From assembly GCF_001186365.1 (NCBI RefSeq), contig NZ_LDTZ01000019.1:186001-250000 (forward strand): a stretch of DNA of 64,000 nt. Direction: 5' to 3'. Below, one piece after another: positions 28,876 to 50,613 of this stretch. This stretch comes from Gordonia jacobaea. Its GTDB lineage: Bacteria > Actinomycetota > Actinomycetes > Mycobacteriales > Mycobacteriaceae. The notes under the pieces were generated by a model, which searched no databases, was not told the DNA's origin, and worked only from the letters and a program-made list of their open reading frames with translations. Both the position numbers and the translations under genes were made by a program. Each line of letters opens with the position of its first letter. Position 1 is the first letter of the stretch.

Positions 28876-28887
28876 ATTGTTGACAAT
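28876..28887. promoter_or_regulatory. ATTGTTGACAAT operator, copy 1
   Basis: A 12-bp inverted repeat (ATTGT-TG-ACAAT) in the 89-base divergent promoter between the hydroxyacid dehydrogenase and the aminotransferase remnant. Its form matches operators of FCD-type GntR regulators (TNGT...ACNA). Identical and near-identical copies precede two other operons of the region. A further palindrome, GTACACCGTGTAC, lies at 28900-28912 just before the ATG. Confidence 0.6.
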
Positions 28888-28914
28888 CCGACGATCTGAG
28901 TACACCGTGTACCC

Positions 28915-29390
28915 ATGACCCTCGCCGCAACGCCTCAGACCGCGTCGCTGTCGCCGATCCTCAAGCAGGCGACGCCCGTCGTCGTCGATCACGCGCTCGG
29001 CTCGTGGATTCACGGAACCGACGGAAACAGCTACCTCGATTTCACCACCGGCATCGGGGTCACCAGCACCGGCCACTGCCACCCGAGGGTCGTCGCCGCA
29101 GCTCAGGAGCAGTGCACCAAGATCATCCACGCGCAGTACACGACGGTGATGCATCAGCCGCTGCTCGAACTCACCGAGAAGCTCGGCGCAGTCCTCCCAC
29201 TCGGACTCGATTCCGTCTTCTATGCGAACTCCGGGTCGGAGGCCGCCGAGGCAGCGGTGCGCCTGGCCCGCATGGCAACCGCGAACCCCAACATCATCGT
29301 GTTCCAGGGCGGATTTCACGGGCGAACCGTCGCGGCCGCGAGTCTCACCACCGCGGGCACCCGATTCTCCGCGGGCTTCTCACCCCTCTG
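28915..29390 (+). pseudogene. N-terminal fragment of a class III aminotransferase
   Basis: The first 158 codons are a clear class III (4-aminobutyrate/ornithine type) PLP aminotransferase N-terminus: DFTTGIGVTSTGHCHPRVV, FYANSGSEAAEAAVRLAR and GGFHGRTVAAASLTTAGTRF. The homology stops after AGFSPL. The PLP-binding Lys and the whole C-terminal two-thirds are missing. The frame runs on as Arg-rich nonsense and then into the downstream dehydrogenase, giving a misleading 752-codon frame. The fragment is followed without a gap by part of an unrelated gene in another frame, so an internal deletion is the best explanation. No activity is expected. Confidence 0.8.
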
Positions 29391-29728
29391 CGCACGCCTC
29401 GACGGCCGCACTGGCGTCGCTCGGCGTCGAGGTCACCACGGCCGACGGATGCTGCGGCGTCGCAGGCAACTTCGGCTTCGAGAAGGGCCACTACGAGGTC
29501 AGCGTCGCGGTGGCCGAGAACGCCCTGGCGCCCGCGCTCCGTGCCGCGCCGGAAACTCCGGTCATCACCGACGGGTTCAGTTGCGCGATGAGCGTCGACC
29601 ACCTGACGGCCACCGACCCCCTCATCAACGCCCACGGGCAGCACCTCGCCGAACTGCTCGCACAGGCGCTGCCCCTTGCACAAGAACTACCCCGCGCACA
29701 GCCATCACCAGAGGAAGGACTCCGATGA
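29391..29728 (+). pseudogene. C-terminal fragment of an FAD/Fe-S oxidoreductase (CCG domain)
   Basis: In the frame one base ahead of the aminotransferase fragment, the sequence becomes the end of an FAD-binding and (Fe-S)-binding oxidoreductase: LGVEVTTADGCCGVAGNFGFEKGHYEV, then VITDGFSCAMSVDHL, then HGQHLAELLAQAL. The Cys-Cys-Gly block and final Cys are those of the CCG module found at the C-terminus of D-lactate/glycolate oxidase-like proteins. The flavin part is gone. Its stop overlaps the ATG of the next gene (ATGA), so the join of oxidoreductase end and dehydrogenase start is probably the ancestral operon layout. The breakpoint lies at about 29385-29405. Confidence 0.75.
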
Positions 29729-31173
29729 CACTTCTCGTCGACACAACCTGGGCACCCGCATCCTCGAAACGTCGCTTCGATGTCGAGAACCCGGCGACGG
29801 GCGAGGTCATCACGTCGGTCCCGGACGGCAACGCCGACGACGCGCTCGAAGCCCTCCGTCGTGCCGCCGCCGCCCAATCCGACTGGGCGGCAACCAGTCC
29901 CCGCTCGCGTAGCGAGATCCTCTACCGCGCATACGAACTCATCACCGCGCGGGCCGACGAGTTCGCGACCCTGATGACCACCGAGATGGGCAAACCGTAC
30001 CCCGAAGCGCGTGGCGAGGTTGCCTACGGCGCAGAGTTCTTCCGCTGGTTCGCCGAGGAAGCCGTACGCATCGGCGGCGACCACTTCCTCACCCCGGACG
30101 GCAACAACCGAGTCGTCGTCCGGCATCGCCCCGTCGGCCCGTGCATCCTGATCACGCCGTGGAACTTCCCATTGGCGATGGGAACACGCAAGATCGGCCC
30201 GGCGATCGCCGCGGGCTGCACGATGGTCTTCAAGCCCGCAGAGCTGACACCGTTGACCTCGCTACTCCTCGCCGACGTGCTCCGCGAGGCAGGTCTGCCC
30301 GATGGCGTCCTGAACGTGGTCACCACAAGCGATCCCGGTGACGTCGTCGGTGCGTGGATGTCGTCGGGCCTCGCCCGCAAGGTCAGCTTCACCGGCTCCA
30401 CCGCGGTGGGAAAGCTGTTGCTGCGCCAGGCCGCCGACACGGTGATGCGCACCTCTATGGAGCTCGGCGGCAACGCACCCTTCATCGTCTGCGACGACGC
30501 CGATCTCGACACCGCGCTCGACGCCGTGATGGTCGCGAAGATGCGAAACATGGGACAGGCATGCACTGCGGCCAATCGCATCTTCGTGCATCGTGACGTC
30601 ATGGACGAGTTCGCACGCGGTCTCACGCAACGCATGTCAACACTCACCGTCGGAAACGGAATGTCCGAGGGCACCCAGGTCGGCCCCCTCGTCGAACGCA
30701 AAGCCGTCGACAAGGTCGAAGAGCTCGTCGACGACGCCGTTCGACGCGGAGCATCGCTTCAGTGCGGCGGCACCCGTCCCGACGGCCCCGGCCACTTCTA
30801 CCCGCCGACGGTCCTCACCGACGTTCACCCCGAGTCCGCTCTCATGAGCACCGAGATCTTCGGGCCGGTCGCCGCTCTGATCCCGTTCGACGGCTCCGGA
30901 ATCGAGGCCGACGACACCGTCGTCGCAGCCGCGAACAGTACGCCCGCGGGCCTGGTCGGATACGTCTGCAGTCGCGACGCCGAGCGTCTCGACGCCATCT
31001 CGTCGAGCCTCGCGGTGGGTATGGTCGGGGTCAACACGGGTCTGGTCTCCAACCCCGCGGCCCCGTTCGGGGGGATCAAGGAGTCGGGCCTCGGCCGCGA
31101 GGGCGGACGTCTCGGCATCGAGGAGTTCCTCGACGTCACCTACACGTCCACCCCGATCCGACGGAGGCGATAG
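29725..31173 (+). CDS. NAD(P)-dependent semialdehyde dehydrogenase (GabD/DoeC-like)
   Basis: A 482-residue aldehyde dehydrogenase of the succinate-semialdehyde group. Motifs: LITPWNFPLAMGTRK near residue 140, GSTAVGKLLL, the general base Glu in MELGGNAPFIV near 250, and the catalytic Cys in MGQACTAANR near 285. GAGGAAGGA precedes the ATG. It leads an operon with the M24 hydrolase (adjacent stop and start) and the aminotransferase, so the natural substrate is probably the semialdehyde made by that transaminase, such as aspartate semialdehyde, rather than succinate semialdehyde from GABA. That assignment is inferred. Confidence 0.88.
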   Translation: MTLLVDTTWAPASSKRRFDVENPATGEVITSVPDGNADDALEALRRAAAAQSDWAATSPRSRSEILYRAYELITARADEFATLMTTEMGKPYPEARGEVAYGAEFFRWFAEEAVRIGGDHFLTPDGNNRVVVRHRPVGPCILITPWNFPLAMGTRKIGPAIAAGCTMVFKPAELTPLTSLLLADVLREAGLPDGVLNVVTTSDPGDVVGAWMSSGLARKVSFTGSTAVGKLLLRQAADTVMRTSMELGGNAPFIVCDDADLDTALDAVMVAKMRNMGQACTAANRIFVHRDVMDEFARGLTQRMSTLTVGNGMSEGTQVGPLVERKAVDKVEELVDDAVRRGASLQCGGTRPDGPGHFYPPTVLTDVHPESALMSTEIFGPVAALIPFDGSGIEADDTVVAAANSTPAGLVGYVCSRDAERLDAISSSLAVGMVGVNTGLVSNPAAPFGGIKESGLGREGGRLGIEEFLDVTYTSTPIRRRR

Positions 31174-32367
31174 GTGTATCTCGGCGCCCAACTCTTCACC
31201 GACAGCGAGTACCGACAGCGGTTGACCCGCGTGCGCGAACTGATGGATCTGCAAGGACTTTCGGCGATCATCGTCACCGACCCCGCGAACATCTTCTACC
31301 TCATCGGGTACAACGCGTGGTCGTTCTACACCCCGCAGATGCTGTTCGTCCCCATCGACGGCGAGATGCTGTTCTTCGCTCGCGAGATGGACGCACATGG
31401 CGCCCACCGCACCACCTGGCTACCCGACGAGCAGATCGTCGGCTATCCCGAGAGCTACGTGCACCGCCCGCACGTGCACCCGTTCGACTGGGTCGCGTGG
31501 GCGCTGCGGCAACGTCATCAGGTCGCACCGGCGTCGAAGGGCGGCTCCGTCGGACTCGAGATGGACTCACACTTCTTCTCTCCCAAGGCTTACCGCGCGC
31601 TACACAACGCCATCCCCGAGTGGAAGCTCGTCGACAACTTCGAACTCGTCAACTGGGTACGTTCGGTGAAATCCGACGCCGAGGTGCAGCTCATGCGACA
31701 GGCCGGCATGGTGTGTTCAGAGGCGATGCGCGCCGCCATCGAGACCATCGATGTCGGTGTACGGCAATGTGATGCGGCAGCAGCGATCTCACAGGCACAG
31801 ATCACCGGCACCGACCAGTTCGGCGGCGACTATCCCGCGATCGTGCCGATGATGCCGACCGGTGCCGCCGCCGACACTCCCCATTTGACTTGGCACCAGG
31901 GCACTTTCACGCCTGACGAGGCCGTCGTCGTCGAATTGTCCGGTGCGCACAACCGGTATCACTGTCCCCTCGCCCGCACCGTGGCGCTGAGCGCACCGTC
32001 GAAGGATCTCGACTATGTCGCGGGCGCGACGGCAGAGGGCCTCAACAACGTCCTCGACGCGATCAAACCCGGTGTCGCCACGCGTGAGCTCGCATCGACC
32101 TGGAACTGGACCCTCGCCAAGTACGGTCTCGAAAAGCCCTCTCGCCTCGGCTATTCCATCGGGATCGGTTACCCACCGGATTGGGGTGAGCGCACCATCA
32201 GCATCCGCACCGAGGACGAAACCATCCTCGAAACCAACATGACCTTCCACATCGTCTGCGGAATGTGGATGGACGACTACGGTTTCGAGCTCTCCGAGTC
32301 GGTACGAGTCAGCCCGACGGGCGTCGAAACCTTCACCGCGTTCCCACGGGAACTGATCAGGAAATGA
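31174..32367 (+). CDS. M24 family hydrolase, ectoine hydrolase (DoeA/EutD)-like
   Basis: A 397-residue pita-bread-fold protein, close in length to DoeA (about 399). The N-terminal domain has TDPANIFYLIGYNAWSFYTPQ, very like the DoeA/EutD GYDAWSFY block. The C-terminal catalytic domain lacks the usual five metal ligands: the first Asp pair is replaced (VVVELSGAHNRYHCPLARTV), as in creatinase and EutD, which open a ring or amidine without metal. The GTG start lies next to the upstream stop, with GGAGG before it. Ectoine hydrolase is the favoured function; creatinase-like or another metal-free M24 activity is the alternative. Confidence 0.75.
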   Translation: MYLGAQLFTDSEYRQRLTRVRELMDLQGLSAIIVTDPANIFYLIGYNAWSFYTPQMLFVPIDGEMLFFAREMDAHGAHRTTWLPDEQIVGYPESYVHRPHVHPFDWVAWALRQRHQVAPASKGGSVGLEMDSHFFSPKAYRALHNAIPEWKLVDNFELVNWVRSVKSDAEVQLMRQAGMVCSEAMRAAIETIDVGVRQCDAAAAISQAQITGTDQFGGDYPAIVPMMPTGAAADTPHLTWHQGTFTPDEAVVVELSGAHNRYHCPLARTVALSAPSKDLDYVAGATAEGLNNVLDAIKPGVATRELASTWNWTLAKYGLEKPSRLGYSIGIGYPPDWGERTISIRTEDETILETNMTFHIVCGMWMDDYGFELSESVRVSPTGVETFTAFPRELIRK

Positions 32368-32377
32368 GGTGTCAGCA

Positions 32378-33595
32378 GTGACCACCATGAACTACACGCT
32401 CCCCCTTGCCGGACGCGCGAAGGATCTCGTCGGCTCGATGATCGATTCATCGACATCCCTGCTGGCCTCTCAGACGCACGACATCGTGCGCTTCGCGATG
32501 GGCTCGCCAGCGGATGAGGCCGTCCCCGCCGCGGAGTTCCGGCAGATCGCCGGTGAGATCCTCGACAACTCGTCGTTCACCTACGGCGCCACCGAGGGCG
32601 AACCACGGCTGCTGCAGCTCCTCGTCGACTACCTCGCGACCACACCCGACCCGTCGAGCCTCGATCGCCTCGTCATCACCACCGGCGGCATGCAGGGCCT
32701 CGACCTCGCGTCCAAACTGTTCGTCGACCCCGGCGACCTCGTCGTCGTCGAATCACCCACGTACACCAACGGCAGTGCCACCGCGCTGTCGTACGGCGCG
32801 CAGCTTCTCGAAGTGCCCGTCGACGACGACGGCATGCAGGTCGACACCCTCGAAGACCTCGTCTCCCGCACCCGACGCACCCCCAAGGCGATCTACACGA
32901 TCCCGACGTTCCAGAACCCGTCGGGCGTCACCCTCTCCGAGGAGCGTCGACGCGAGCTGTTGCGGCTGGCGCACGAGTGGGGCGCCGTCATCATCGACGA
33001 CGACCCGTACGGCCTGCTGCGCTTCTCCGGCGACGACGTCCCGACGTTCCAGACCCTGTCGCCGCACGATCCGCTGATCTTCTCGGTGCGGACGTTCTCC
33101 AAGATCCTCGCGCCGGGCTGGCGGGTCGGATGGGTCGACGCCGATCCGTCGCTGCGCCAACTGCTCATCAACGGCAAACAGGCGATGGACACCTGCACCA
33201 ACGTGCCCAACCAGCACATCGTCGCCGAGTACATCGCGCGCGGCGGACTCGAGGATCACCTCGCCGGCCTGCGGGTTCTCTACCGCGAACGCAGGGACGC
33301 GATGCTCGATTCGGTCGAGCGCCATTTCGGTGACCGCGTGTCGACGACGCACCCCGAAGGCGGATTCTTCCTCTGGCTGACCCTGCGCGGCGAGTTCGCC
33401 GAGATCGACACCCGCGAACTGTTCGAGACTGCTCTCGCCGACGGCGTCGCGTTCATCCCCGGCCCCGCGCTGTCGCCGACCGGCCGGTTCCGTAACGCCC
33501 TGCGTCTGTGCTTCGCATCGAGCACGCCCGAGCGCATCGACGAGGGAATTCGACGTCTCGCCGGAAGCTGCGAGAGGATGACACAGAACAGATGA
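32378..33595 (+). CDS. PLP-dependent aminotransferase (fold type I, MocR/2-aminoadipate-like)
   Basis: A 405-residue class I/II aminotransferase related to LysN and to the C-terminal half of MocR regulators, but without a DNA-binding domain. The PLP lysine is in VRTFSKILAPGWRVG near residue 240; TIPTFQNPSGVTLS, DDDPYGLLRF and the substrate-carboxylate Arg near the C-terminus (RNALRLCFA) are present. The GTG at 32378 has GAGG at good spacing; another GTG lies nine bases upstream. It probably supplies the semialdehyde for the upstream dehydrogenase. In the known ectoine pathway this step uses a class III enzyme, which here survives only as a fragment. Confidence 0.88.
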   Translation: MTTMNYTLPLAGRAKDLVGSMIDSSTSLLASQTHDIVRFAMGSPADEAVPAAEFRQIAGEILDNSSFTYGATEGEPRLLQLLVDYLATTPDPSSLDRLVITTGGMQGLDLASKLFVDPGDLVVVESPTYTNGSATALSYGAQLLEVPVDDDGMQVDTLEDLVSRTRRTPKAIYTIPTFQNPSGVTLSEERRRELLRLAHEWGAVIIDDDPYGLLRFSGDDVPTFQTLSPHDPLIFSVRTFSKILAPGWRVGWVDADPSLRQLLINGKQAMDTCTNVPNQHIVAEYIARGGLEDHLAGLRVLYRERRDAMLDSVERHFGDRVSTTHPEGGFFLWLTLRGEFAEIDTRELFETALADGVAFIPGPALSPTGRFRNALRLCFASSTPERIDEGIRRLAGSCERMTQNR

Positions 33596-33634
33596 GGTCG
33601 GTATAGCCAGCCGACAATCACGAAGGGGATTCCA

Positions 33635-34825
33635 GTGACGGTGAGCGAGTCCGACGCGGTGGTGGCCCGGATCCGTCCGGACGAGATCGTCGCGCTCACC
33701 AGAGCTCTGGTCGACGCCCCGAGTGAGAACCCGGGCGGCACCGAGGCCCTGGCCGTCGCCATTCTCGAAAATGCCTGCCGCGATGCCGGTTTCACCGTCA
33801 CCACCCATGAGGTGACGCCCGGCCGACCCAACCTCATCGCGACGCTACCCGGCGGCGACGGGCCAGGACTGATGTTCCTCGGCCACTCCGACGTCGTCCC
33901 GGCCGGACCTGGCTGGACCGGTGATCCCTACCGCACCCGGTTGTCCGAAGGCGTGCTGACCGGGCGCGGCACCGTCGACATGAAGGGCGGATTGGCCTCG
34001 GTCGTCGAGGCGATGTCGGCGCTGGCGCCGCTGGCCGCGCAGGGCCGACTCTCCGGTCCGGTGCAGTTGGTCTGCACCGTCGACGAGGAGGAACACGGAG
34101 CGGGCGTCCGCGACCTGGTGGCCCGCGCCGACACCTCCCGCAACTTCGTCGGATGCGTCGTCGCCGAACCCACCGATCTGGTCGTCGTCCGCGGGTGTCG
34201 CGGGGCGTCGTATCTGGAAATCGACATCCGGGGCAAGGCCGCCCACTCCGGTCGCCCCGACGACGGCCGCAGCGCAATCTACGCGGCGGCGTCGATCATC
34301 GACATCATCCGGGCCGACCACGAGGCGATGACCGCGAGCGCCGCAGGTCTTCTCGGCTCGGGTACCTGGAACGTCGGGACGATGAGCGGCGGGCAAGGCA
34401 TTTCCGTTGTCGCCCCGATGGCGGCACTCGGAGTCGACCGCAGACTGATGCCAGACGAGAGTGCGGAGGCCATCGCCGAATGGCTGCGCGGCCGCATCGC
34501 CGCCGCAGGCATCGAGTCCGACGGCATCGAGGTCGACGTCGCGGTCACCATGGAGATGCCGGGCTTCGAGACGCCTGCCGACCACACACTGGTCACCGCA
34601 ACCGTCGACGCGCTGAACTCACTCGACGCCCAGACGTCCGTCGGCGGCTGGACCGCGGCGTGCGACGGCGGTTTCGTCAGTCGCGACCTCGGCATCCCGG
34701 CGATCGTCTGCGGTCCGGGCAACATCAACACCCAGGCCCATCAGCCGGACGAATCCGTCGCGGTCGACGATCTGGTCACTGCCGCACGGGCTTACGCGTT
34801 GGTGGCGCTGGAACTGCTCGGCTGA
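33635..34825 (+). CDS. M20 family metallopeptidase (ArgE/DapE-like deacylase)
   Basis: A 396-residue M20 hydrolase that removes acyl groups from N-acyl amino acids. All metal and catalytic positions look intact: FLGHSDVVPAG (His), GRGTVDMKGG (bridging Asp), TVDEEEHG (catalytic Glu pair), VVAEPTD (Glu), and QAHQPDESV (last His). A dimerisation domain lies between about residues 180 and 295. The start is GTG at 33635 with AAGGGGA upstream. It follows the aminotransferase by about 40 bases. In an ectoine-type pathway it could take the place of DoeB, which belongs to another family. It overlaps the convergent TetR gene by 50 bases. Confidence 0.88.
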   Translation: MTVSESDAVVARIRPDEIVALTRALVDAPSENPGGTEALAVAILENACRDAGFTVTTHEVTPGRPNLIATLPGGDGPGLMFLGHSDVVPAGPGWTGDPYRTRLSEGVLTGRGTVDMKGGLASVVEAMSALAPLAAQGRLSGPVQLVCTVDEEEHGAGVRDLVARADTSRNFVGCVVAEPTDLVVVRGCRGASYLEIDIRGKAAHSGRPDDGRSAIYAAASIIDIIRADHEAMTASAAGLLGSGTWNVGTMSGGQGISVVAPMAALGVDRRLMPDESAEAIAEWLRGRIAAAGIESDGIEVDVAVTMEMPGFETPADHTLVTATVDALNSLDAQTSVGGWTAACDGGFVSRDLGIPAIVCGPGNINTQAHQPDESVAVDDLVTAARAYALVALELLG

Positions 34826-35399
34826 CGCCGACCGCCCCGAGCACAGCGCGCACCGTCGAACGCACCCGCGCGTCGACCTCAGCCGGAGAGCTTTCGGGGA
34901 ACTTTCCGCCGAGGTACAAGAACGCCAGCCCGTGCACCAGCGCCCACATCGCGGTCGCAACCTCTTCCGGCTCTGCCGTCGAAACCGTAGCGGCGACAAC
35001 GGTATTCAGATACCCATGGATCGCCTCGACGGCCTCGACCCGATCCGGGCTCGTCGGGTCGCACCGCTCGGCGAACATCGCGCGGAACAACCCCGACCGC
35101 TCCAACGCGAACCGCACGTAGGCGACGGCGATGTCGGCTACATCGTCGACGCTCGACGGCGACTCGCTCGCCGCTCTCAGCCGCGCAGTCAGCTCGCGAT
35201 AGCCCACCGCAGCAACGCTCGAGACCAATGCCTCACGGTCGGCGAAGTGCCGGTAGGGCGCCGCGGGTGAGACGCCCGCGCGCCGTGCGACAGCGCGCAA
35301 CGACAACTCGGCAGAGCGGTCCTCGTTGAGCAACTCGATCGCCGACTGCACCAGCGCTGCGGCGAGATCACCGTGGTGATACGACTCGGGCCTCGACAT
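34776..35399 (-). CDS. TetR family transcriptional regulator
   Basis: A 207-residue repressor-type regulator. The N-terminal helix-turn-helix is clear: LSLRAVARRAGVSPAAPYRHFADREALV (residues about 30-57). A ligand-binding domain follows, ending in MWALVHGLAFLYLGGKFP. The start at 35399 gives MSRPESYHHGDL, a common TetR N-terminus. It is convergent with the M20 gene, overlapping its end by 50 bases, and divergent in spacing from no other gene, so its targets cannot be read from layout. Ligand unknown. Confidence 0.88.
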   Translation of the reverse strand: MSRPESYHHGDLAAALVQSAIELLNEDRSAELSLRAVARRAGVSPAAPYRHFADREALVSSVAAVGYRELTARLRAASESPSSVDDVADIAVAYVRFALERSGLFRAMFAERCDPTSPDRVEAVEAIHGYLNTVVAATVSTAEPEEVATAMWALVHGLAFLYLGGKFPESSPAEVDARVRSTVRAVLGAVGVSRAVPAPPTRKPVRQ

Positions 35400-35497
35400 A
35401 TGCCAGATTCTATCGCTGGTCGAGCCGCCGCAGACCGTCAGCACTGCACGCCGGAGCCGGGATCAGCGCGTGACGACCGAGCCGGTGTCCGCGCGTG

Positions 35498-36892
35498 TCA
35501 GCGCGAAGTCACCGCCGTGGAGCTCTCCGGAACCGTGATGTCCTCGGTCCGCTCGGGAATCTCGGTGCCGCGCAACGACGCTCCAGCCGTCTCCTTCAAG
35601 AAGATCAGCGCCACCATGCCGATCGCACACGCGCCCATCATGTAGACGGCGGGAAACAGGTTCCAGCCCGTGTCATTGACCACCGCTTCGTTGACGAGCG
35701 GTGCGGTACCGCCGAACGCGGCGGTCGCCACGTTGTAGGAGATCGCGAAGCCCGCGTAGCGCACCTGAGTGGGGAACATCGCCGGGAACGTCGCGGAGAT
35801 GGTCGAGAGCTGGGGCACATAGAACAGTCCCAGGATCACGAATCCCACTATTGCCCAAGCGAATCCCTTACCCATCAACCAGTAGAGCGGTATCGCGAAT
35901 ACGAAGAGTCCGATGAGCGAGAACCACCACATCGGTTTACGCCCGGTCTTGTCCGACGCCGCTCCGAAGAACGGGATCACCACCATCATCGCGAGCTGCC
36001 CGATGAGCACCACCGTCGAACCCGACGACTCCGACAGCCCGATCGTCTCCTTCAGGTACGTCGGCTGATACGCCAGCAGCGTGTAATTCGCGACGTTGAG
36101 TGCGATCACCATGCCGAACATGATCAGGATCGGCTTCCAGTAGTTGCTCAGCAGATCCTTGAAACGGGTGTAGGCGCTTCCGGTGATCTCGTCGCGCTTG
36201 TCCAGCTCCTGGAACACCGGGGTGTCTTCCAGCTGCGAGCGCAGATACAGACCGATCAACCCGAGCGGCAGCGCAATCAGGAACGGAATTCGCCAGCCCC
36301 ACGTCTGCATCTGCTCGTCGGAGAGCAACAGCTCGAGGAACAGAACGATCGCGGTGCCCGCGCTGAACCCGGCGAGTGTGCCGAACTCCAGCAGCGATCC
36401 GTACTTGCCGCGCTTGTTGTCCGGCGCATACTCGGCCATGAACGTCGCAGCACCGCCGTATTCGCCGCCGGTCGAGAAGCCCTGAATCACGCGCAGCGCT
36501 ATCAACAGAATCGGCGCCCAGATCCCGGCGACGGCGTGTGTCGGAAGGACACCGATCAGCGCAGTGGCACCGGCGATCAACAGAATCGTCATGGCCAGCA
36601 CGGACTTTCGTCCGATCCGGTCACCGATGGGACCCCAGATCATGCCGCCCAACGGGCGTAGGACGAATGAGATCGCGAACCCGAGCATGGTGCCTATCGA
36701 GCCGAGCGACCCCGGGAAGAATGCTTGCGTGAGGTAAGTAGCGGTCGCGGCGTAGACGCCGTAGTCGTACCACTCTGTTGCGTTGCCGATCGCCGACGCG
36801 CCAATTGCTTTGCGGAGTAGAGCTTTTCCTTCTCGCGACTCGGGGTCGGGTGCGAGATCCTCATAGGTTGCCGAGGAGTTTGCCGTAGCCAT
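35498..36892 (-). CDS. MFS transporter, metabolite:H+ symporter (MHS/ProP-like) family
   Basis: A 464-residue major facilitator with twelve hydrophobic segments. The MHS-type opening IGNATEWYDYGVYA, the loop motif GDRIGRKSVL near residue 105, and FSTGGEYGGAATFMAEY near 150 are visible, as in ProP and the dicarboxylate/betaine symporters. AGGAAGG precedes the ATG at 36892. It follows the GntR gene by 80 bases on the same strand, so it is likely the uptake system for the compound this cluster degrades. ProP-like proteins carry proline, betaine and ectoine; substrate here is inferred only. Confidence 0.9.
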   Translation of the reverse strand: MATANSSATYEDLAPDPESREGKALLRKAIGASAIGNATEWYDYGVYAATATYLTQAFFPGSLGSIGTMLGFAISFVLRPLGGMIWGPIGDRIGRKSVLAMTILLIAGATALIGVLPTHAVAGIWAPILLIALRVIQGFSTGGEYGGAATFMAEYAPDNKRGKYGSLLEFGTLAGFSAGTAIVLFLELLLSDEQMQTWGWRIPFLIALPLGLIGLYLRSQLEDTPVFQELDKRDEITGSAYTRFKDLLSNYWKPILIMFGMVIALNVANYTLLAYQPTYLKETIGLSESSGSTVVLIGQLAMMVVIPFFGAASDKTGRKPMWWFSLIGLFVFAIPLYWLMGKGFAWAIVGFVILGLFYVPQLSTISATFPAMFPTQVRYAGFAISYNVATAAFGGTAPLVNEAVVNDTGWNLFPAVYMMGACAIGMVALIFLKETAGASLRGTEIPERTEDITVPESSTAVTSR

Positions 36893-36972
36893 CTGTGCCT
36901 TCCTGGGTGGACTCGGGGCCAGTGTGTCTTCGCGCTGACTCACATCGGTGGGCGGTGATCAGTACATGTCGT

Positions 36973-37659
36973 CTAGAGCAGTCGGCGGAGACCGTCTCTC
37001 ATGTGTTCGATCATCAGCTCGTCGGCCGCCTTCGCATCTCCAGCCGCGATGGCGTCCACCAATGCCTGGTGTTCGTCGGTACGTTCCTTTCCCGAGGAAT
37101 ACGTTCCCCGCATCGCGCGTAGACACATCTTCGTTTCCACGAGGATCGTGCTGTGCAAGCGCGACAATCGTTGACTCCGCGCGTACTCCACCAAAGTCTG
37201 ATGGAACCGCATATCCGCTTCGGCCATGTCTTCGCCGTTCGGATCGTCGATATGACGACGCATCAACGCAACCACGTCGGTGAGAGCTTGCACCGCCGCA
37301 GGGTCGCCGTGTTCGATCACCTGCTCTATTGCCGCACGTTCAACGGCCGTCCGGGCGATGTACATGTCCCGGATGTCGTCGTCATCCATCGAGACGACGA
37401 ACAAGCCTCGGTTGCGGTGACTCACCAGCAACCCTTCTGCAGTCAGGCGTTGCATCGCCTCTCGCAGCGGCCCCCGACTCACTCCCAGGTCTGCTGCGAG
37501 ACCTGCTTCGGTCAATTGTGAACCGGACGGAAAGTTACCGTTCGCAATCGCATCGTGCAACTTTCTGGCGATGATCGCAGGTGTCGACTCCTGCTCGATC
37601 GGTTCGAGAACCCTACGGCGACCTTCCGATCGAGTTCGCTCCATTGTCATCGTGACCAT
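36973..37659 (-). CDS. GntR family regulator, FCD subfamily
   Basis: A 228-residue regulator. The winged helix has LTEAGLAADLGVSRGPLREAMQRLTAEGLL (residues about 48-77) and is followed by an FCD helical domain. Metal-ligand-like residues occur in MRFHQTLVEYA and in the late HQALVDAIAAGD and IEHMRDGL. It follows the DUF3830 gene by 15 bases, in the amidase operon. FCD regulators bind TNGT...ACNA palindromes, and ATTGTTGACAAT precedes this operon and two others nearby, so this protein is the best candidate for the shared regulator. Starts at 37650 or 37644 are alternatives; 37650 has better ribosome-binding spacing. Confidence 0.9.
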   Translation of the reverse strand: MVTMTMERTRSEGRRRVLEPIEQESTPAIIARKLHDAIANGNFPSGSQLTEAGLAADLGVSRGPLREAMQRLTAEGLLVSHRNRGLFVVSMDDDDIRDMYIARTAVERAAIEQVIEHGDPAAVQALTDVVALMRRHIDDPNGEDMAEADMRFHQTLVEYARSQRLSRLHSTILVETKMCLRAMRGTYSSGKERTDEHQALVDAIAAGDAKAADELMIEHMRDGLRRLL

Positions 37660-37674
37660 CCTCTTCTTCGTACT

Positions 37675-38172
37675 CTATGCACGCGCAAATGTCAGGGTTT
37701 CGCCGCGAGCGCCGCCCATCCAGATGTCGTTGCATGCTGCGGCGAACTCGACGAGACCATCGGTGATGGTGGCGAACACATTTCCGGGAACCCATCCGAC
37801 ATCCCCGTTGACCAGCAAGTTGTTTCGACCATAGAAGACTGCAAGGTCGATGAGCAGTGAGTGTTCCGACGGCGCGGCGTCGGATTCGTAACCGTAAGCG
37901 GGATTGTCCAATACACCGTCGAAGGTGAAATAGCAAAGGTCGCCCGGTATCGGTGTGACCGTCGTGTTCTCCGGTCCCGGTTCATGCGCCGCGAACGCGG
38001 GTGCCAACGTATAGATCTCGTTGCGCGCAAACTTGCCGTGAAAGACCTGACCCCCCAACGGCAAAGCGTCCCACACCGCGGCGGCGGTGCGCGGCGCCTC
38101 GGCGTCGAGCAGTCTCGCCCTTGCGCTGACATCGCGCGATGTGAGGCTGACGATGATGAAGCGATCGGTCAC
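37675..38172 (-). CDS. DUF3830 family protein (cyclophilin-like fold)
   Basis: A 165-residue protein of the DUF3830 family, whose members adopt a cyclophilin-like fold and are encoded in small-molecule catabolic clusters. Recognisable parts are APRTAAAVWDALPLGGQVFHGKFARNEIY near residues 25-55, PGDLCYFTF, and VPGNVFATITDGLVEF. The GTG start overlaps the amidase stop as GTGA, so the two products are made together, which suggests the amidase and this protein act on the same compound. Biochemical function is unknown. Confidence 0.82.
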   Translation of the reverse strand: MTDRFIIVSLTSRDVSARARLLDAEAPRTAAAVWDALPLGGQVFHGKFARNEIYTLAPAFAAHEPGPENTTVTPIPGDLCYFTFDGVLDNPAYGYESDAAPSEHSLLIDLAVFYGRNNLLVNGDVGWVPGNVFATITDGLVEFAAACNDIWMGGARGETLTFARA

Positions 38173-39626
38173 GAGCCGTCTCGACTTTCGTTGAGGTGAG
38201 CAGACTTTCGTCGAAAGTCTGCATCTGCGAGCGTGCCGACGTTCGCGACCGACTCGTATGCCGCGGCCACACGCAGCACTGTCGCGTCGTCGTGGCGTGC
38301 TCCCACGATCTGAATGCCAGTGGGCAGCAACGGGTCCTGCGCAAAGCCGCTCGGCACCGTGATCGCAGGTTGACCGGTGAGATTGAACGGATAGCTGTAC
38401 GGCGTCCACGACGTCCAGTCCTGCGACGACGAACCTGCAGGCACGTCGACGCCCGCCTCGAATGCGACCGACGGCATCGACGGTGTCACCAGAACGTCGT
38501 ACTCCTCGTGCAGTGCACCCATCTGTGTGCCCATTGCCATTCGCAGCGCAGTGGCATCCACATAGTCGGCCGCACTGAAGTCGCGGTGACGTTCCAGTGC
38601 CGCAAGCAGTTTCGGGTCGACGCGATCCCGGAGGGCAGGGTCCAGAGCCCCGACCACCGCGGCCGCTCCCGCGAACCACGCCGTGTGGTACGCCCAGACC
38701 GGATCGTCCCACCCGATGTCGACCTCGTCGACCGTGGCTCCGAGGTCGCGTAGAACGCCGACCGCAGCCTCGGTATTCGACTGCACCGCAGCATCATTGA
38801 CGCCATAGCCGAGATCGGGACTGTAAGCGACGCGGATGCCGTCCAAACCCCGCGCGCCTGCGATGATCTCCGGGGCGACAGGTTGCGGCGTCGGCCCCGC
38901 CGACCAGTCGCGCGAGTCGAAACCACTGATGACGTCAAGCAACAACGCGCAGTCGACGACGCTGCGCGTCATCGGTCCGACATGTGCCACCGGCGCGAAC
39001 GGACTCGGCGGATACATCGGCACCCGGCCGAGCGTCGGCTTGAGCCCGACGACTCCGCAGAACGCAGCCGGAATACGAATCGAGCCGCCACCGTCGGTGC
39101 CGACCGACAGTGGCCCGAGTCCCGCCGCGAGGGCAGCGGCGCTACCTCCGCTCGAACCTCCCGACGTCCGATCGGTCGACCACGGATTGCGCGTGATGCC
39201 GGTCCGGGGACTGTCGGTCACGCCTTTCCAGCCGAACTCAGGCGTCGTGACCTTGCCGAGCGGCACGGCTCCCGCCTCGCGCAGTCGTGCCACCGCTGGA
39301 GCGTCGACGTCGGATCGTTGTATGTCAGGGCTCAGCGTCAACGAGCCGCGCAGCGTCGGCCACCCCTCGGTGACCAGGAGATCCTTGATCGACACCGGCA
39401 CGCCGTCGAGCGGACCGATGGGAGTCGACGCGGCGTAGCGAGCCGCCGATTGGCGTGCGGCAGCCATCGTCGTGTCCGGGTCAACGACACAGAAGGCATT
39501 GATCTCGGCGTTCACCTGCGGGATGGTGTCCAGTAGCTCGGCAGCGACGTCGACAGGGCTCAGCAACCCACTGCGGTAGGCGTCACCGAGCTCCGACGCC
39601 GACATCGTGCGCACTGAGTCCTGCAT
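38169..39626 (-). CDS. Amidase (amidase signature family)
   Basis: A 485-residue amidase signature hydrolase. The catalytic triad is visible: Lys in GVPVSIKDLLVT near residue 83, the cis-Ser in GGSSGGSAAALAAGL near 155, and the nucleophilic Ser in GTDGGGSIRIPAAFCG near 180. The active-site region is complete. GGAGG lies five bases before the ATG at 39626. It heads an operon running amidase, DUF3830, GntR and transporter. It faces a racemase-like gene across a 73-base divergent promoter with an ATTGTTGACAAT operator. The amide substrate is unknown. Confidence 0.9.
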   Translation of the reverse strand: MQDSVRTMSASELGDAYRSGLLSPVDVAAELLDTIPQVNAEINAFCVVDPDTTMAAARQSAARYAASTPIGPLDGVPVSIKDLLVTEGWPTLRGSLTLSPDIQRSDVDAPAVARLREAGAVPLGKVTTPEFGWKGVTDSPRTGITRNPWSTDRTSGGSSGGSAAALAAGLGPLSVGTDGGGSIRIPAAFCGVVGLKPTLGRVPMYPPSPFAPVAHVGPMTRSVVDCALLLDVISGFDSRDWSAGPTPQPVAPEIIAGARGLDGIRVAYSPDLGYGVNDAAVQSNTEAAVGVLRDLGATVDEVDIGWDDPVWAYHTAWFAGAAAVVGALDPALRDRVDPKLLAALERHRDFSAADYVDATALRMAMGTQMGALHEEYDVLVTPSMPSVAFEAGVDVPAGSSSQDWTSWTPYSYPFNLTGQPAITVPSGFAQDPLLPTGIQIVGARHDDATVLRVAAAYESVANVGTLADADFRRKSAHLNESRDGS

Positions 39627-39668
39627 GGTCACCTCCGGTTCCGATACGGTGAGAACAACAATTGTTTG

Positions 39669-39680
39669 ATTGTTGACAAT
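39669..39680. promoter_or_regulatory. ATTGTTGACAAT operator, copy 2
   Basis: Identical to the copy at 28876 and placed in the divergent promoter between the amidase operon and the racemase-like gene. A neighbouring half-related block, AACAATTGTT (39655-39665), forms another small palindrome, so two dimers could bind side by side. Confidence 0.65.
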
Positions 39681-39699
39681 CTAGTCGGGAGGTCAACCC

Positions 39700-40509
39700 G
39701 TGACAACCGCTATCACCGCGGTCCTCTACCCGGGACACGCGGCCGAGGACGACTACCAGCTCATCGAGGACGCACTCAGCCCGTCGATTCGCCTGCCCGT
39801 GGTGATCACCGAGATCGACTCCGACGACCACACCGTCGGCGCCATGCGCGCTGTCGGCGAGTCCGACCGACTACTCGACGGCGCACAGCGCGCACGCACA
39901 CACGACCCCGCAGCGTTGATGTGGGCGTGCACCTCGGGCAGCTTCCTCTACGGGTGGGAGGGCGCACAACGGCAGGCCGCGCAGTTGTCCGAGGTTGCGG
40001 GACTACCCGCATCGTCGACGTCGCTCGCGTTTGCCGAGGCGTGCAGAGCGCTCGGGATCGACGCGGTCGCGGTCGCGGCGAGCTATCCGGGCGACGTCGC
40101 CGCGGGATTCACGACGTTCCTCGCCGGCGCGGATATCGAGGTGGTCGGCATGCGCGCCAACGACATTCTGACCGCGACCGACGCCGGGTTCATCGACGGC
40201 GACACCCTGTTCGACATGGTCGTCACCGCCGATCAGCCTGCGGCGCAGGCCATCCTGATTCCCGACACCGCACTACACACGGCAACCTGGATCAACGACC
40301 TCGAGGCGCAGGTCGGCAAACCGGTCCTCACCGCGAACCAGGTGACTGCCTGGGAGGGTGCGCGGCTCGCGGGCGCAACCCCGCACTCCGACAAGCTGGG
40401 CGCGTTGTTCAGTCAGACGCCGCTTGTTCAGGCTCCGCGCCTCCAGACCCAGCCTGCTCAGGTGCCGAGTGTCCCCGTACGAAGCGATACCCCATCCCGG
40501 CCTCGGTGA
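39700..40509 (+). CDS. Asp/Glu racemase superfamily protein (maleate isomerase/EutA-like), one catalytic Cys lost
   Basis: A 269-residue protein like maleate cis-trans isomerase, arylmalonate decarboxylase and the ectoine-utilisation protein EutA. The first catalytic Cys is present (WACTSGSFLYG, near residue 75). The second, usually in a SCTNL-type motif, is replaced (ILIPDTALHTATW near 190), although the following GKPVLTANQVTAWEG is fully conserved. GGGAGG precedes the GTG start. The last 30 residues are Gln/Pro rich and overlap the convergent kdpE by 101 bases. A lyase or decarboxylase-like reaction with one Cys, or loss of activity, is possible. Confidence 0.78.
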   Translation: MTTAITAVLYPGHAAEDDYQLIEDALSPSIRLPVVITEIDSDDHTVGAMRAVGESDRLLDGAQRARTHDPAALMWACTSGSFLYGWEGAQRQAAQLSEVAGLPASSTSLAFAEACRALGIDAVAVAASYPGDVAAGFTTFLAGADIEVVGMRANDILTATDAGFIDGDTLFDMVVTADQPAAQAILIPDTALHTATWINDLEAQVGKPVLTANQVTAWEGARLAGATPHSDKLGALFSQTPLVQAPRLQTQPAQVPSVPVRSDTPSRPR

Positions 40510-43689: not shown

Positions 43690-43719
43690 GGGACCGAGTC
43701 TAATCAGCGCGACCGGCGA

Positions 43720-44343: not shown

Positions 44344-44350
44344 GCTGCGA

Positions 44351-46489: not shown

Positions 46490-48435
46490 AGAAGTGCCTC
46501 CGCGATGGGTCCCAGCGCCATGGCCGGGAAGAAGGTGAGACCGGCGACGAGAAGGATCGTGCCGAGTAGCAATACGCCGAACAGAACTCCGTGCGTGGGG
46601 AGATTGGCCTCGGCCCGGACGGCCTCCTGCCGCTCGAGGACGGCAACCACCCCGCCGCTACCGCTGGTCGAGCTTGTCGAGACCTCCGCAGCGCTGGTCG
46701 AGCTGCCTTCGCTGGTCGAGCTTGTCGAGACCACCCCACCGCCGATCGAGCTCCCACCGCTGGTCGAGCCCTGCCCGCTGGTCGAGCTTGTCGAGACCAC
46801 CTCGCCGGCCGGGCTCCCACCGCTGGCCGAGCTCCCGCCGCTGGCCGAGCTCCCGCCGCTGGTCGAGCTTGTCGAGACCACCCCGCGCGGGCGTTGGCGG
46901 CTGAGCAGCCCCGCGAGCGCGAGCACGAACACGATCGGCAAGAACCGGCCGAGTAGCATCGCCATTCCGAGCGACGTCTGGAACCAGTCACTGGTGACCG
47001 TCAGCCCACCGAACGCGCTGCCGTTGTTGTTCGCTGCCGACGCATACGCGTAGATCACCTCGGAGAACCCGTGGATCGATCCCGGAGTCCCCGGGTCGCC
47101 GCTGTTGCCCTGGGCGTCGAGCGTCGAACCCATCGCAACGCTGACACCGACGCCGACCAGCACCAGAGCGGGCATGACCAACACGTACAGCGCCGCCATG
47201 GTGATCTCGTTCTGGCCGATCTTCTTTCCGAGGAACTCCGGCGAGCGTCCGACGAGGAGACCGCCGACGAACACCGTGACCACAGCCATCATCAGGATTC
47301 CGTACAGACCGGTGCCGACGCCGCCGGGCGCGACCTCGCCGAGAAGCATGTTCCAGATCACCGCTCCACCACCGCCGGCAGACAGGCTGTCGTGGGCGGC
47401 ATTGACTGCGCCCGTAGATGTTCCGGTTGTCGAGACCGCGAACAACGCACTTCCGGGAATACCGAAACGCTGTTCCTTGCCCTCCATCATCGCGCCGGCA
47501 GCCTGAGCGGCGAGACCGTTGGTGTGCGATTCGAAACTCCACACGATCGCGAGCATCACGCCCCAGATCGCCGCCATCACGCCGAGCAGCGTGAGGCCCT
47601 GGCGTCGATCGCGCACCAGCGTGCCATAGGTACGTGTCAGGCAGATCGGAATGATCAGGATCGCAAGGATTTCCACGACGTTGCTGAACGGCGTCGGATT
47701 CTCGAACGGATGCGCCGAGTTCGCCGACAGCGTGCCGCCGCCGTTGGTTCCGAGTTCCTTGATCGCCTCCTGAGAAGCGAACGGCCCCACCATGCTTCGG
47801 GAAGGATCACCCGACATCGTCGTGAAGCCGAAGCCGCTGTGCCACGACTGCACCACACCCTGAGTCAGCAGCACGATCGCGACGATCACGCTGAGCGGCA
47901 GGAGAATACGGACGCACGTACGCGTGAGGTCGACCCAGAAGTTGCCGATCAGTCCGTCGCCGCGTCGGTTCACCAATCCCCTGATGAGCGCGACGGCCAC
48001 AGCCATACCGACGGCGGCAGACACGAAGTTCTGCACAGCGAGTCCGAGCATCTGGGAAAGGTTGCTCATAACCACTTCTGGCGAATACGACTGCCAGTTG
48101 GTGTTGGTGACAAACGAGATCGCGGTGTTGAACGCCGTCGCGGGATTGACACCTGCCTTGCCGTCCGACCAGGGCAGCACGCCCTGTAGCCGCTGCAGCA
48201 GATAGAGAAAGAGAAACGAGATCAGCGAAAAGGCCAGTACCGCAAGCACGTAGCCGACCCACGTCTGTTCGCGTCGGGCGTCGACGCGAGCCAACGAGTA
48301 GATCGCGCGCTCGGGCAGCAGATCGCGAGTGCTGCGGTACACGCGGGCCATGTAGTCGCCCAGCGGCACGTAGACGACTGCGAGAACCAGGACGACGAAC
48401 GCCACCTGGAGCGCCCCCGCAAGGGATGAATTCAC
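46486..48435 (-). CDS. kdpA: KdpA, K+-transporting subunit A, with in-frame repeat-derived insertion
   Basis: A 649-residue K+ channel-like subunit. The family is about 557 long. Residues 1-517 and 611-649 are ordinary Kdp[17 protein letters not shown] holds selectivity-filter residues, and the last helix has [15 protein letters not shown]. Between them, just before the last helix, is an insertion of about 75-90 residues made of V-S-T-S-S-T-S, Gly and Ser units. It is the translation of four copies of a genomic palindromic repeat. The insert stays in frame, avoids stops and sits in a loop, so the pump may still work. The start is GTG at 48435, two bases after kdpF. Confidence 0.93.
46662..46879. 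repeat. Palindromic repeat cluster inside kdpA
   Basis: Four full copies of a 23-bp unit containing CTGGTCGAGCTTGTCGAGAC, at 46662-46684, 46711-46733, 46776-46798 and 46857-46879. Truncated copies ending in GAGCTCC or GAGCTGCC lie between them. All are in the same orientation and lie wholly in the kdpA reading frame. The unit differs from that at 27.66 and 27.79 kb mainly by G for A in both arms (CTGGTC...GAGACC instead of CTGATC...GAGATC), a paired change that keeps the stem. Confidence 0.9.
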
Positions 48436-48437
48436 GT

Positions 48438-48536
48438 TCAGAACCTTTCCGGCTTGATCAGCGCGATCATGAGGTAGATCGCTGTCGCCGCCGACAGGAC
48501 CAGCAGAACCACGTTCAACACTCCGTCTGCAGTCAT
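48438..48536 (-). CDS. kdpF: KdpF, small K+-transporting ATPase subunit
   Basis: A 32-residue single-helix peptide (GVLNVVLLVLSAATAIYLMIAL, then KPERF). The ending KPERF is the hallmark of KdpF, which stabilises the KdpABC complex in the membrane. It precedes kdpA by two bases, and its ATG overlaps the stop of a still smaller upstream frame. Confidence 0.88.
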   Translation of the reverse strand: MTADGVLNVVLLVLSAATAIYLMIALIKPERF

Positions 48537-48625
48537 CGGCCGATCCTCGCGTCGACGCCCCGGACCACCAGGACGCATATCGCGAAGCCGATCAACGCGG
48601 CGAGTACATAAAGCACATCGGCCAC
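48533..48625 (-). CDS. Candidate 30-residue membrane peptide upstream of kdpF
   Basis: A GTG at 48625 with AAGGAG about eight bases upstream opens a 30-codon frame: an Ala/Leu/Val-rich helix (ADVLYVLAALIGFAICVLVV) followed by RGVDARIGR. Its stop overlaps the kdpF ATG (ATGA). The ribosome-binding site, coupling and hydrophobic content all argue for a real gene. It resembles KdpF in size and topology but lacks KPERF, so it could be a second accessory subunit or a leader peptide. Confidence 0.6.
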   Translation of the reverse strand: MADVLYVLAALIGFAICVLVVRGVDARIGR

Positions 48626-48793
48626 TTGTCACACTCCTTGGCTGGGCATGCCGAACGTCGAGCTGGCGAACGGCGCACCACAGCTTCTGTCTAATTCGTC
48701 TGTGTTGGAAGACCTCTTAACGCGTTCCATACGCGGCGCCGGGGTTTGTTGACGCAACCTTCGCGCCGAGCGACTCAGCCGTGCAGCGGGCCT

Positions 48794-48821
48794 CGTCAAA
48801 GGCCCGTCAAAGGCGCGTCAA
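48794..48821 (-). promoter_or_regulatory. Candidate KdpE box: three 11-bp direct repeats
   Basis: CGTCAA occurs at 48794, 48805 and 48816, an exact 11-base period (TTGACG on the kdp strand, each followed by a similar GGCC/CGCC spacer). OmpR-family regulators such as KdpE bind tandem repeats of this spacing. The site is about 170 bases upstream of the first kdp frame. The rest of 48626-48894 shows nothing else I can name. Confidence 0.55.
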
Positions 48822-48894
48822 GATCTGCGCTCACGGCGTCGAGAAGTCGTGAGGAATACGCTCTCCCGCGTGTGTAGGAGTTAGAACCGATCAC

Positions 48895-49392
48895 ATGAAC
48901 GAGTCAGGATCGTCGCGCTGGGGATACGTCCAGGTCGGCTACGCGCGCCATTGGGTCTGCCATCGCATCGTCGTGTATCCGCCGGGTGCCAGCGCGGACG
49001 ACGCGCGCTGGCTGCGCGTGTGGCGGGCACTACCCTTCGTCGCGATCGCGACGGTGTTGACCGCAGCGTTGATCGCGTCGTGGATGGGTCGCTCCGGGCT
49101 TGCCGGAATGCTGAGTGGAATGGTTGTCGCGTTCGCGACGGTTGTGGTCGTGGGGCAGCGGACCCACCTGGTGCGCACGCAGACACGCACAATGGAGGCG
49201 TGGACGGGTTACGGAACCGACGCCACTGCCCGAGCTACCCAGCGGAGTATCTGCGAACTCGCCGCTGCCCTGCGCGACGCCGATGGCCGTCTCGCTTCAG
49301 GTGCGATCAGCCCCGTCGAACACGAAATGGTATGGGCCCGTTGCTATCACGAGATTCCCGCTGCCCGGCGGCGTCGACTCAGCGCGGTGTGA
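48895..49392 (+). CDS. Hypothetical membrane protein (actinobacterial DUF6611-like)
   Basis: A 165-residue protein with two adjacent hydrophobic segments (LPFVAIATVLTAALIASWM and GMLSGMVVAFATVVVVG) at about residues 45-85, a polar N-terminus with several Trp and Tyr, and a helical C-terminus. It resembles a family of unnamed mycobacterial and Gordonia proteins; I am not certain of the DUF number. Divergent from the kdp operon, it may share regulation. Its end overlaps the convergent oxidase gene by 14 bases. TAGGAG lies upstream of the ATG. Function unknown. Confidence 0.65.
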   Translation: MNESGSSRWGYVQVGYARHWVCHRIVVYPPGASADDARWLRVWRALPFVAIATVLTAALIASWMGRSGLAGMLSGMVVAFATVVVVGQRTHLVRTQTRTMEAWTGYGTDATARATQRSICELAAALRDADGRLASGAISPVEHEMVWARCYHEIPAARRRRLSAV

Positions 49393-49768
49393 TCGCGATG
49401 CCGATCGTCCCATCCTTGCCACGACGGATCAGGCTTGCCTTGACGAGACCCCAGCCGACGATGCCGTACTTCTTCGAGATGGCGCTGCGCGCGCGATCGG
49501 TACCGGCGGCGTCGAGGATCGTCGCGGTTCCGTCCACCGGTTGACCCTGGAGCTTCTTTCCGCGGGCATCACACGCCTGGACGACGACGTGCGAGTCGCG
49601 TCGAATCCGCTTGACCTTCCACGAGTCGGTCTCTGTCCACATCAGCAGCGACTCGCCGTCGTAGGCCGCCCACAGAGGCGACGACACCGGCGTCCCGTCT
49701 TTGCGAAAAGTGGTCAGCTGCACGTACTTTGCATCGGTCGCAGCGTCGAAGGGCTTATCGGTGGCCAT
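49379..49768 (-). CDS. PPOX-class flavin/F420-dependent oxidoreductase family protein
   Basis: A 129-residue split-barrel protein of the pyridoxamine-phosphate-oxidase-like class, common in Mycobacteriales as F420H2-dependent reductases. Visible features: LTTFRKDGTPVSSPLWAAYDGESLLMWTE at the cofactor side, KVKRIRRDSHVVVQACD, and the late KYGIVGWGLVKASLIRRG. Whether it binds FMN, F420 or heme cannot be told. The ATG at 49768 gives the usual N-terminus. Confidence 0.82.
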   Translation of the reverse strand: MATDKPFDAATDAKYVQLTTFRKDGTPVSSPLWAAYDGESLLMWTETDSWKVKRIRRDSHVVVQACDARGKKLQGQPVDGTATILDAAGTDRARSAISKKYGIVGWGLVKASLIRRGKDGTIGIAITPR

Positions 49769-49806
49769 ACCCAACCCTACTTCGCTCAACCCGATATCGG
49801 AGTCGC

Positions 49807-50577
49807 TCACGCGGCGCGTGCGAACAGCGACTGGTCGGCAGCAGGTACCGCGTAGGAGTGAGTGATCCCTGGCGACAGCACGCCGGCGTCGACGAGCGTC
49901 GCCCACGCGGTCACCTGGTTGGCCGAGAGCACCGGCTTGCCGAGTTCGGCTTCGAGTGCGCCGAGGACGTCGTAGGTCCAGAGGTTGGTGCAGGACACGA
50001 AGATCGCGTCGGCGTCCGGATGGTCGGCGCCACGGATCAGATCGGCCGTGACCGAATACGGAATGGTCCAGATGTCGTGGTCACGACCGAGTCCGGCCTG
50101 CGCCACCACGCTGCGTCCGGCCTGCGCGAGAAAGTCGCACAGCAACCCGGTGAGCGCATTCGTATAGGGCGTCGCCACGGCTATCCGACTGATTCCCAAC
50201 GCATCCAACGCGCGTAACAGCGCTTCCGACGTCGTGACCGCACGCTGCGCACCGGCACCCAACATGCAGTTGGAGAGTTCGACCGCCCCGGAGATGCCGT
50301 AGACAAAGCTGCCCGACGCACACGCGTACGCGTATGCACTGGGCCGAACGGCCGATATCGCGCGCACCGCCGCCGCGATCTCGGCGTGGTTGTTCAGGTC
50401 CTTGCACATGTCGACGTCGACCGGAGCGTCGATGAATCCGGTTCGGGTGAAATACAGCGAGACGCCGTCGGGCATCCAGCGCCACAGCTCGCGGTCGAGA
50501 GCCATATCGAACGGGCAGACGATCCCGATGCCAACCTGCTCGCCGGGGCCATCACCCCACCCGAATTCGTACTCCAT
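49807..50577 (-). CDS. Maleate isomerase/Asp-Glu racemase family protein (EutA-like), both Cys present
   Basis: A 256-residue member of the same family as the protein at 39.7 kb, sharing YACASGSFVYG and GKPVLSANQVTAWA. Both catalytic cysteines are in place (YACASG near residue 80 and FVSCTNLWTYD near 195), as in maleate cis-trans isomerase. No clear ribosome-binding site is seen; an in-frame ATG at 50595 is an alternative start. A one-mismatch copy of ATTGTTGACAAT lies 25 bases upstream, linking it to the catabolic cluster 10 kb away across the kdp operon. Confidence 0.82.
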   Translation of the reverse strand: MEYEFGWGDGPGEQVGIGIVCPFDMALDRELWRWMPDGVSLYFTRTGFIDAPVDVDMCKDLNNHAEIAAAVRAISAVRPSAYAYACASGSFVYGISGAVELSNCMLGAGAQRAVTTSEALLRALDALGISRIAVATPYTNALTGLLCDFLAQAGRSVVAQAGLGRDHDIWTIPYSVTADLIRGADHPDADAIFVSCTNLWTYDVLGALEAELGKPVLSANQVTAWATLVDAGVLSPGITHSYAVPAADQSLFARAA

Positions 50578-50601
50578 GCAGGCATGATGACACATTGTCG
50601 G

Positions 50602-50613
50602 ATTGTTGACAGT
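50602..50613. promoter_or_regulatory. ATTGTTGACAGT operator, copy 3
   Basis: It differs from copies 1 and 2 at one base (ACAGT instead of ACAAT). It is preceded by the same GG/GA context and lies just upstream of the maleate-isomerase-like gene. This recurrence is unlikely to be chance in DNA of about 65% GC, because the motif is two-thirds A/T. Confidence 0.55.

Follow-up and report, generated by a model that had tools for sequence, protein, structure and literature searches.

Can three promoters scattered over 22 kb answer to a single regulator? The question is raised by a stretch of 64,000 nucleotides from Gordonia jacobaea (NCBI RefSeq assembly GCF_001186365.1, contig NZ_LDTZ01000019.1, positions 186,001 to 250,000; hereafter the window), in which a 12-bp palindrome, ATTGTNNACAAT, recurs at the promoters of catabolic genes. 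A sequence-only reading of the window had proposed that the three copies define a catabolic regulon and that the one GntR-family regulator with an FCD domain encoded among them reads them. Our comparison of genomes within and beyond Gordonia leads to the same view: it is very probable that the three sites are operators of a single regulon under the control of the FCD-type GntR protein whose gene lies at 36973-37659, and we infer that this protein binds them. The co-occurrence of the site with the GntR gene across Gordonia and the retention of the site at orthologous promoters both support the regulon.

Exact copies of the palindrome in the genome

Read directly from the window, ATTGTTGACAAT is exact at 28876-28887 (site 1) and 39669-39680 (site 2), and 50602-50613 (site 3) reads ATTGTTGACAGT, with one mismatch to the palindrome. 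When at most one mismatch was allowed, the window held three copies of ATTGTNNACAAT versus 0.35 expected, and 0 of 100 shuffles gave three. Throughout the 4.92-Mb genome, the exact palindrome was found at two places, both inside the window; the reversed control had no match. These results confirm the copies as first described. A genome scan had also been named beforehand as the test, and the hundreds of random hits that it might have returned did not appear. At up to one mismatch, the whole genome has 19 places versus 5 for the control; thus, the one-mismatch form by itself is not specific. No regulon gene was found in the scanned frames at five one-mismatch stretches (C12:49605-49626, C5:287701, C12:73938, C13:43069, and C5:308886), the other places having been viewed as short sequence only.

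At C12:49605-49626 (L243:3606-3627), two one-mismatch sites overlap, with an FtsX-type permease gene on one side and a Clp_N-domain frame on the other; the pair is perhaps another regulator's site. A Rieske ring-hydroxylating oxygenase frame starts close to the one-mismatch site at C5:287701-287712 (L244:2202). Adjoining site 2, at 39650-39668, is another stretch that resembles a palindrome, ACAATTGT, and much of it is common to close relatives.

The palindrome tracks the GntR gene within and beyond Gordonia

Across 59 Gordonia genomes (the window genome being G000), we found orthologues of the GntR protein (E <= 1e-40) in 39; the best match in the named collection is from Gordonia sputi (96%). 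The 39 carriers hold 114 exact sites, at least two in each, while the 20 non-carriers hold 8 (14 genomes with none, 5 with one, and 1 with three). At least two exact sites were present in 39/39 carriers versus 1/20 non-carriers (p = 1.4e-14 by Fisher's test, with no correction for relatedness). Among the matches listed for carriers G000-G037, which were placed by reading them against gene matches, 64 of 69 sites are at promoters of the gene set or just upstream of GntR; the other five are elsewhere, one each in G001, G004, and G018 and two in G028.

The site is also kept at individual promoters. An exact copy is present at the amidase promoter in 33/33 loci of Gordonia relatives and at the class III aminotransferase promoter in 23/23 loci from 22 genomes (G001 twice), out of 38 genomes with the gene; these counts used no mismatch filter, and no locus was dropped for nearness to an edge. 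At the promoters of EutA-like genes, 23 of 27 sites are exact and four, including that of the window, have one mismatch. The four genomes concerned (G000, G053, G001, and G027) are those with the four most similar GntR proteins, so that the imperfect third copy is a change of the window's clade.

At the thresholds set, matches to the regulon genes were found only in GntR carriers: EutA-like in 27/59 genomes, EutD-like in 30/59, amidase in 35/59, and aminotransferase in 38/59. Among the carriers, only the window genome gave no match to the aminotransferase. The amidase had no match in four carriers (G030, G031, G046, and G047), each of which keeps a site 66-199 bp upstream of the GntR match.

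To look further afield, we ranked 268 relatives of the GntR profile and kept the best 80. Of these 80, 57 are from outside Gordonia; the genera sampled include Williamsia, Arthrobacter, Pseudarthrobacter, Kocuria, Dietzia, Mobilicoccus, Arsenicicoccus, Nonomuraea, Cryobacterium, and Tersicoccus. Of the 57 non-Gordonia loci, 50 hold one or more exact sites, with 120 sites in 1.0 Mb versus 0 for the reversed pattern. Sixteen whole genomes reached via these loci and selected by hand hold 63 sites, 2-7 each, versus 3 for the control. One locus, L162, from a record titled Kitasatospora arboriphila, has a layout like that of the Williamsia muralis loci L161 and L172 and may be mislabelled.

Several observations weigh against a single regulon. 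Sixteen further one-mismatch places lie outside the window in its own genome. Because the genomes are related by descent, the p-value makes them look more independent than they are. Six of the 20 non-carriers hold sites, three of them in G032, where no regulon gene is near the one site examined. The four regulon genes tested are restricted to carriers, which leaves no genome with the genes but without the regulator as a contrast. Outside Gordonia, no exact site was found in the fetched DNA of seven of the 57 loci: five of them (L197, L199, L206, L207, and L211) are contigs no longer than 6.1 kb, a copy with one mismatch (GTTGTCAACAAT) is present in L198, and L151, at 20.6 kb, has no site at all. 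Last, the same operator letters serve another FCD GntR protein in Pseudomonas, as described in PMC9765439; FCD regulators that differ from one bacterium to another can use such letters, but the exact sites in this genome are only here.

This shared use of the letters, together with the presence of a TetR gene in the region (34776-35444, by family scan), also raises the possibility that the palindrome is read by another regulator, such as this TetR protein or a different GntR. We consider this very unlikely. Only 2 of 38 relatives' loci gave a TetR match, yet the site is kept in nearly all of them, and TetR was rejected on that ground; moreover, sites drop sharply in genomes without this GntR. 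A single regulon under the FCD-type GntR therefore remains the reading that we prefer.

Form of the conserved element

Within Gordonia, the central dinucleotide of the palindrome varies (TG, CA, CG, AG, and CT) and the arms are constant, as seen in part from a set restricted to sites with at most two mismatches. This pattern bears on the simplest alternative, that the palindrome reflects chance or a -35 promoter box, which is suggested by TTGACA being contained in the window's copies. TTGACA is often lost as the centre varies, and the sites end just 19-27 nt ahead of start codons; constant arms around a variable centre rule out the promoter box, as genome-wide rarity and the tracking of the GntR gene rule out chance. 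We find this alternative scarcely credible. Constant arms argue that the TTGACA box is not what is conserved and that the element is instead a predicted operator.

The letters themselves are those expected of such an element. According to PMC4494728, the sites of the FadR subfamily are TKGT/ACMA palindromes, and some of them have additional boxes at 7-12 nt from the centre; ATTGTNNACAAT, with 2 nt between GT and AC, matches the 2-3 nt spacing of these operators. The sequence-only reading had likewise judged the palindrome's form to fit FCD GntR operators. At the EutA-like and aminotransferase promoters, in the same restricted set, the palindrome is followed two bases on by another half-site, GACAAT or GACGAT.

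Genes at the three sites

Family scans placed each copy at the promoter of a catabolic gene, in agreement with the sequence-only reading. The start codons used for the following distances were chosen from sequence, not mapped. Site 1, an exact predicted operator, lies between the genes for a D-2-hydroxyacid dehydrogenase (27812..28834, minus strand; PF02826; start near 28834, taken from the point at which relatives become similar) and a fragment of a class III aminotransferase (28915..29388, plus strand; PF00202, profile positions 8-153 of 403), whose ATG (28915) is 27 nt past the site and which ends at an apparent deletion at 29388/29389. Further along the plus strand are genes for a succinate-semialdehyde-type aldehyde dehydrogenase (29730..31173, start approximate; PF00171; TIGR01780 546 bits, below the cut-off of 646), an M24 hydrolase like the ectoine hydrolase EutD/DoeA (31174..32367; TIGR02993 413 bits, below the cut-off of 613; DoeA in the PDB, 348 bits), a class I/II aminotransferase-fold protein (32369..33595; PF00155), and an ArgE/DapE-like M20 deacylase (33635..34825; PF01546; TIGR01910 198 bits, below the cut-off of 218). 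In a relative, G008, the M20 gene match (L064:5115-7642) is in two pieces ~1.3 kb apart, perhaps through an insertion.

Site 2, likewise an exact predicted operator, lies between the genes for an amidase (38169..39626, minus strand; PF01425; NF004815 640 bits, above the cut-off of 506) and an AMDase-family protein (39700..40509, plus strand; PF17645), the "racemase-like" gene of the sequence-only reading, for which the tblastn query extended beyond the stop at 40509. The site is 42 nt from the amidase ATG (39626) and 19 nt ahead of the AMDase-like GTG (39700). The minus strand also encodes a DUF3830 protein (37675..38175; PF12903), the FCD-type GntR regulator proposed to read the sites (36973..37659), and a ProP-like transporter of the major facilitator superfamily (35498..36943; PF00083; NF007927 384 bits, below the cut-off of 544). 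The GntR gene is the only one of its family in the frames scanned in that stretch, so the description of a single FCD GntR among the sites stands.

Site 3, a predicted operator with one mismatch, is upstream of the gene for an AMDase/EutA-like protein (49807..50577, minus strand; PF17645; TIGR02990 93 bits, below the cut-off of 318), first described as maleate-isomerase-like, whose ATG (50577) is 24 nt past the site. Between sites 2 and 3, family scans found genes for a KdpE-like response regulator, KdpD, KdpC, KdpB, and KdpA, where a kdp operon had been noted. The accompanying claim that unrelated genes split the regulon holds to the extent that the kdp genes intervene, but the split seems to be secondary. 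Only ~2 kb separate the amidase and eutA sites in G033, while the EutA-like gene of G021, ~73 kb away from the GntR gene, still has an exact site at its promoter. Given these layouts, the kdp interruption does not speak against one regulon.

An apparently truncated first operon in the window genome

The aminotransferase gene next to site 1 had been described as a remnant, and comparison with G053 explains how it was made. Window positions 28701-29388 correspond to 940-1627 of L240 and window positions 29390-30263 to 5126-5999; ~3.5 kb are therefore missing. The loss removes most of the aminotransferase gene and most of a gene, carried by relatives, for a YdiJ-like dehydrogenase with flavin adenine dinucleotide and iron-sulfur domains. 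As a result, at 28915-31173, the start of the aminotransferase runs into the tail of the YdiJ-like dehydrogenase and then into the aldehyde dehydrogenase in one frame of 752 residues, which we interpret as a by-product of the loss. The loss is either a true deletion or an assembly fault, and the pathway may be broken in the window genome.

The regulator and a model of its action

The GntR protein scores above cut-off against both PF00392 (60 bits) and PF07729 (90 bits). Among 22 aligned orthologues, the DNA-binding helix-turn-helix is nearly invariant, and D149, H153, H197, and H219 of the FCD domain are invariant in 22/22. The spacing of these residues, 4/44/22, is that of N144, H148, H192, and H214, the residues described for the Ni site of Ps5454 (PMC7674646). 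Residues that bind metal are frequent in the FCD pocket of this subfamily, though not found in every member. A small carboxylate is a likely effector of the protein.

According to the model that we propose, a GntR dimer would most likely bind ATTGTNNACAAT, and the extra half-site (GACAAT or similar) just downstream would take part at the aminotransferase and EutA-like promoters. The protein would repress the operons, and repression would end when a carboxylate from the pathway's metabolism occupies the metal site in its FCD domain. We infer repression from the position of the sites 19-27 nt ahead of start codons, which would suit it. Direction of regulation is not readable from sequence, and the protein could instead act as an activator; with the sites so near the start codons and with PrpR, discussed below, acting as a repressor, activation seems unlikely, and we retain repression in the model.

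Pathway and substrate

The genes under the predicted operators indicate what the regulon might serve. The M24 protein, the aminotransferase, the semialdehyde-type dehydrogenase, the ProP-like transporter, and the ArgE-like deacylase together resemble, at the level of protein families, the ectoine-to-aspartate route described in PMC5924519. Against the PDB, the top match of the M24 protein is DoeA at 348 bits, with the next family at 73 bits. No EutE/DoeB deacetylase was found, TIGR02994 matching in 0/59 Gordonia genomes at E <= 0.001; the M20 deacylase might stand in for EutE. An EutD-like match was present in 30/39 carriers and lacking in 9/39, and these nine carriers weaken the ectoine reading: that the substrate is ectoine or a close relative is possible but falls short of probable.

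A core of amidase, class III aminotransferase, semialdehyde-type dehydrogenase, and hydroxyacid dehydrogenases points to the breakdown of an amide or amino acid-like compound. In the eight EutD-less carriers with a more distant GntR, the loci show only some of the amidase, GntR, dehydrogenases, and aminotransferase. What the shared core breaks down may be an amide or a compound like γ-aminobutyrate (GABA), the EutD module having been added in some lineages. We lean toward a substrate other than ectoine for the same regulon: an amide or lactam that the amidase would split before transamination and oxidation in a GABA-type manner, with the EutD/M20 module as an extra. The nine carriers without an EutD-like match, the presence of the aminotransferase in all carriers but the window genome, and the lack of EutE favor this alternative, as do the best models for a relative's full-length aminotransferase and aldehyde dehydrogenase, which are of GABA/aspartate and succinate-semialdehyde type, all below cut-off. 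On the other hand, 30/39 carriers have a protein close to ectoine hydrolase, and DoeA is by far its top PDB match. The relative's aminotransferase and aldehyde dehydrogenase belong to the enzyme classes expected of DoeD and DoeC, though they fall below each curated cut-off shown.

A wider proposal, which we regard as tentative and rather doubtful, is that an FCD-GntR regulator with a sensor unlike that of EnuR commands an unrecognised actinobacterial ectoine-type pathway. In this pathway, the M20 protein would replace EutE, and the whole would have been grafted on an older amidase-aminotransferase-dehydrogenase core, with scattered promoters joined by a near-invariant 12-bp operator across many Actinomycetota genera.

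The proposed regulon is a new one of a known regulator class. For an uncharacterised regulator, it supplies a precise predicted operator, a list of genes, and a few candidate substrates, and the palindrome can be used as a DNA marker for finding more pathway genes.

Comparison with known systems

A literature search that included FCD GntR proteins with TTGTNNACAA returned no title or abstract start describing this regulon, and for the motif together with GntR, it returned only PrpR of Pseudomonas; most subscription journals were outside the scope of both results. PrpR (PA0797) of Pseudomonas aeruginosa is an FCD GntR repressor with a predicted consensus ATTGTCGACAAT that binds upstream of prpR (PMC9765439). 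Like the window GntR, it belongs to the FCD class and has a 12-nt palindrome that fits ATTGTNNACAAT, and it represses a catabolic operon. In contrast, PrpR controls the methylcitrate cycle, and a single site, upstream of prpR, is named in the available text; the likeness is one of operator letters and class.

EnuR of Proteobacteria, also of the GntR superfamily, keeps eutD-containing genes repressed, and binding of a metabolite from the pathway ends the repression (PMC5924519). According to the same source, it is a MocR-type protein with a pyridoxal phosphate-binding aminotransferase domain, whereas the window GntR has an FCD domain. No EnuR was found within the cluster, to which this search was confined: the GntR protein there has an FCD and no aminotransferase domain.

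Tentative ectoine clusters in Bacillota and Actinomycetota were described in a 2026 paper (PMC13188858). They differ from the window in that PucR is the regulator named for Bacillota, and the main text mentions neither GntR, FCD, Gordonia, nor Arthrobacter. They resemble the window in their eutD homologues, and the Bacillaceae examined there are without eutE and have an amidohydrolase and an aldehyde dehydrogenase. For such Gram-positive ectoine-type catabolism, so far tentatively proposed, the FCD-type GntR protein of the window offers a candidate regulator.

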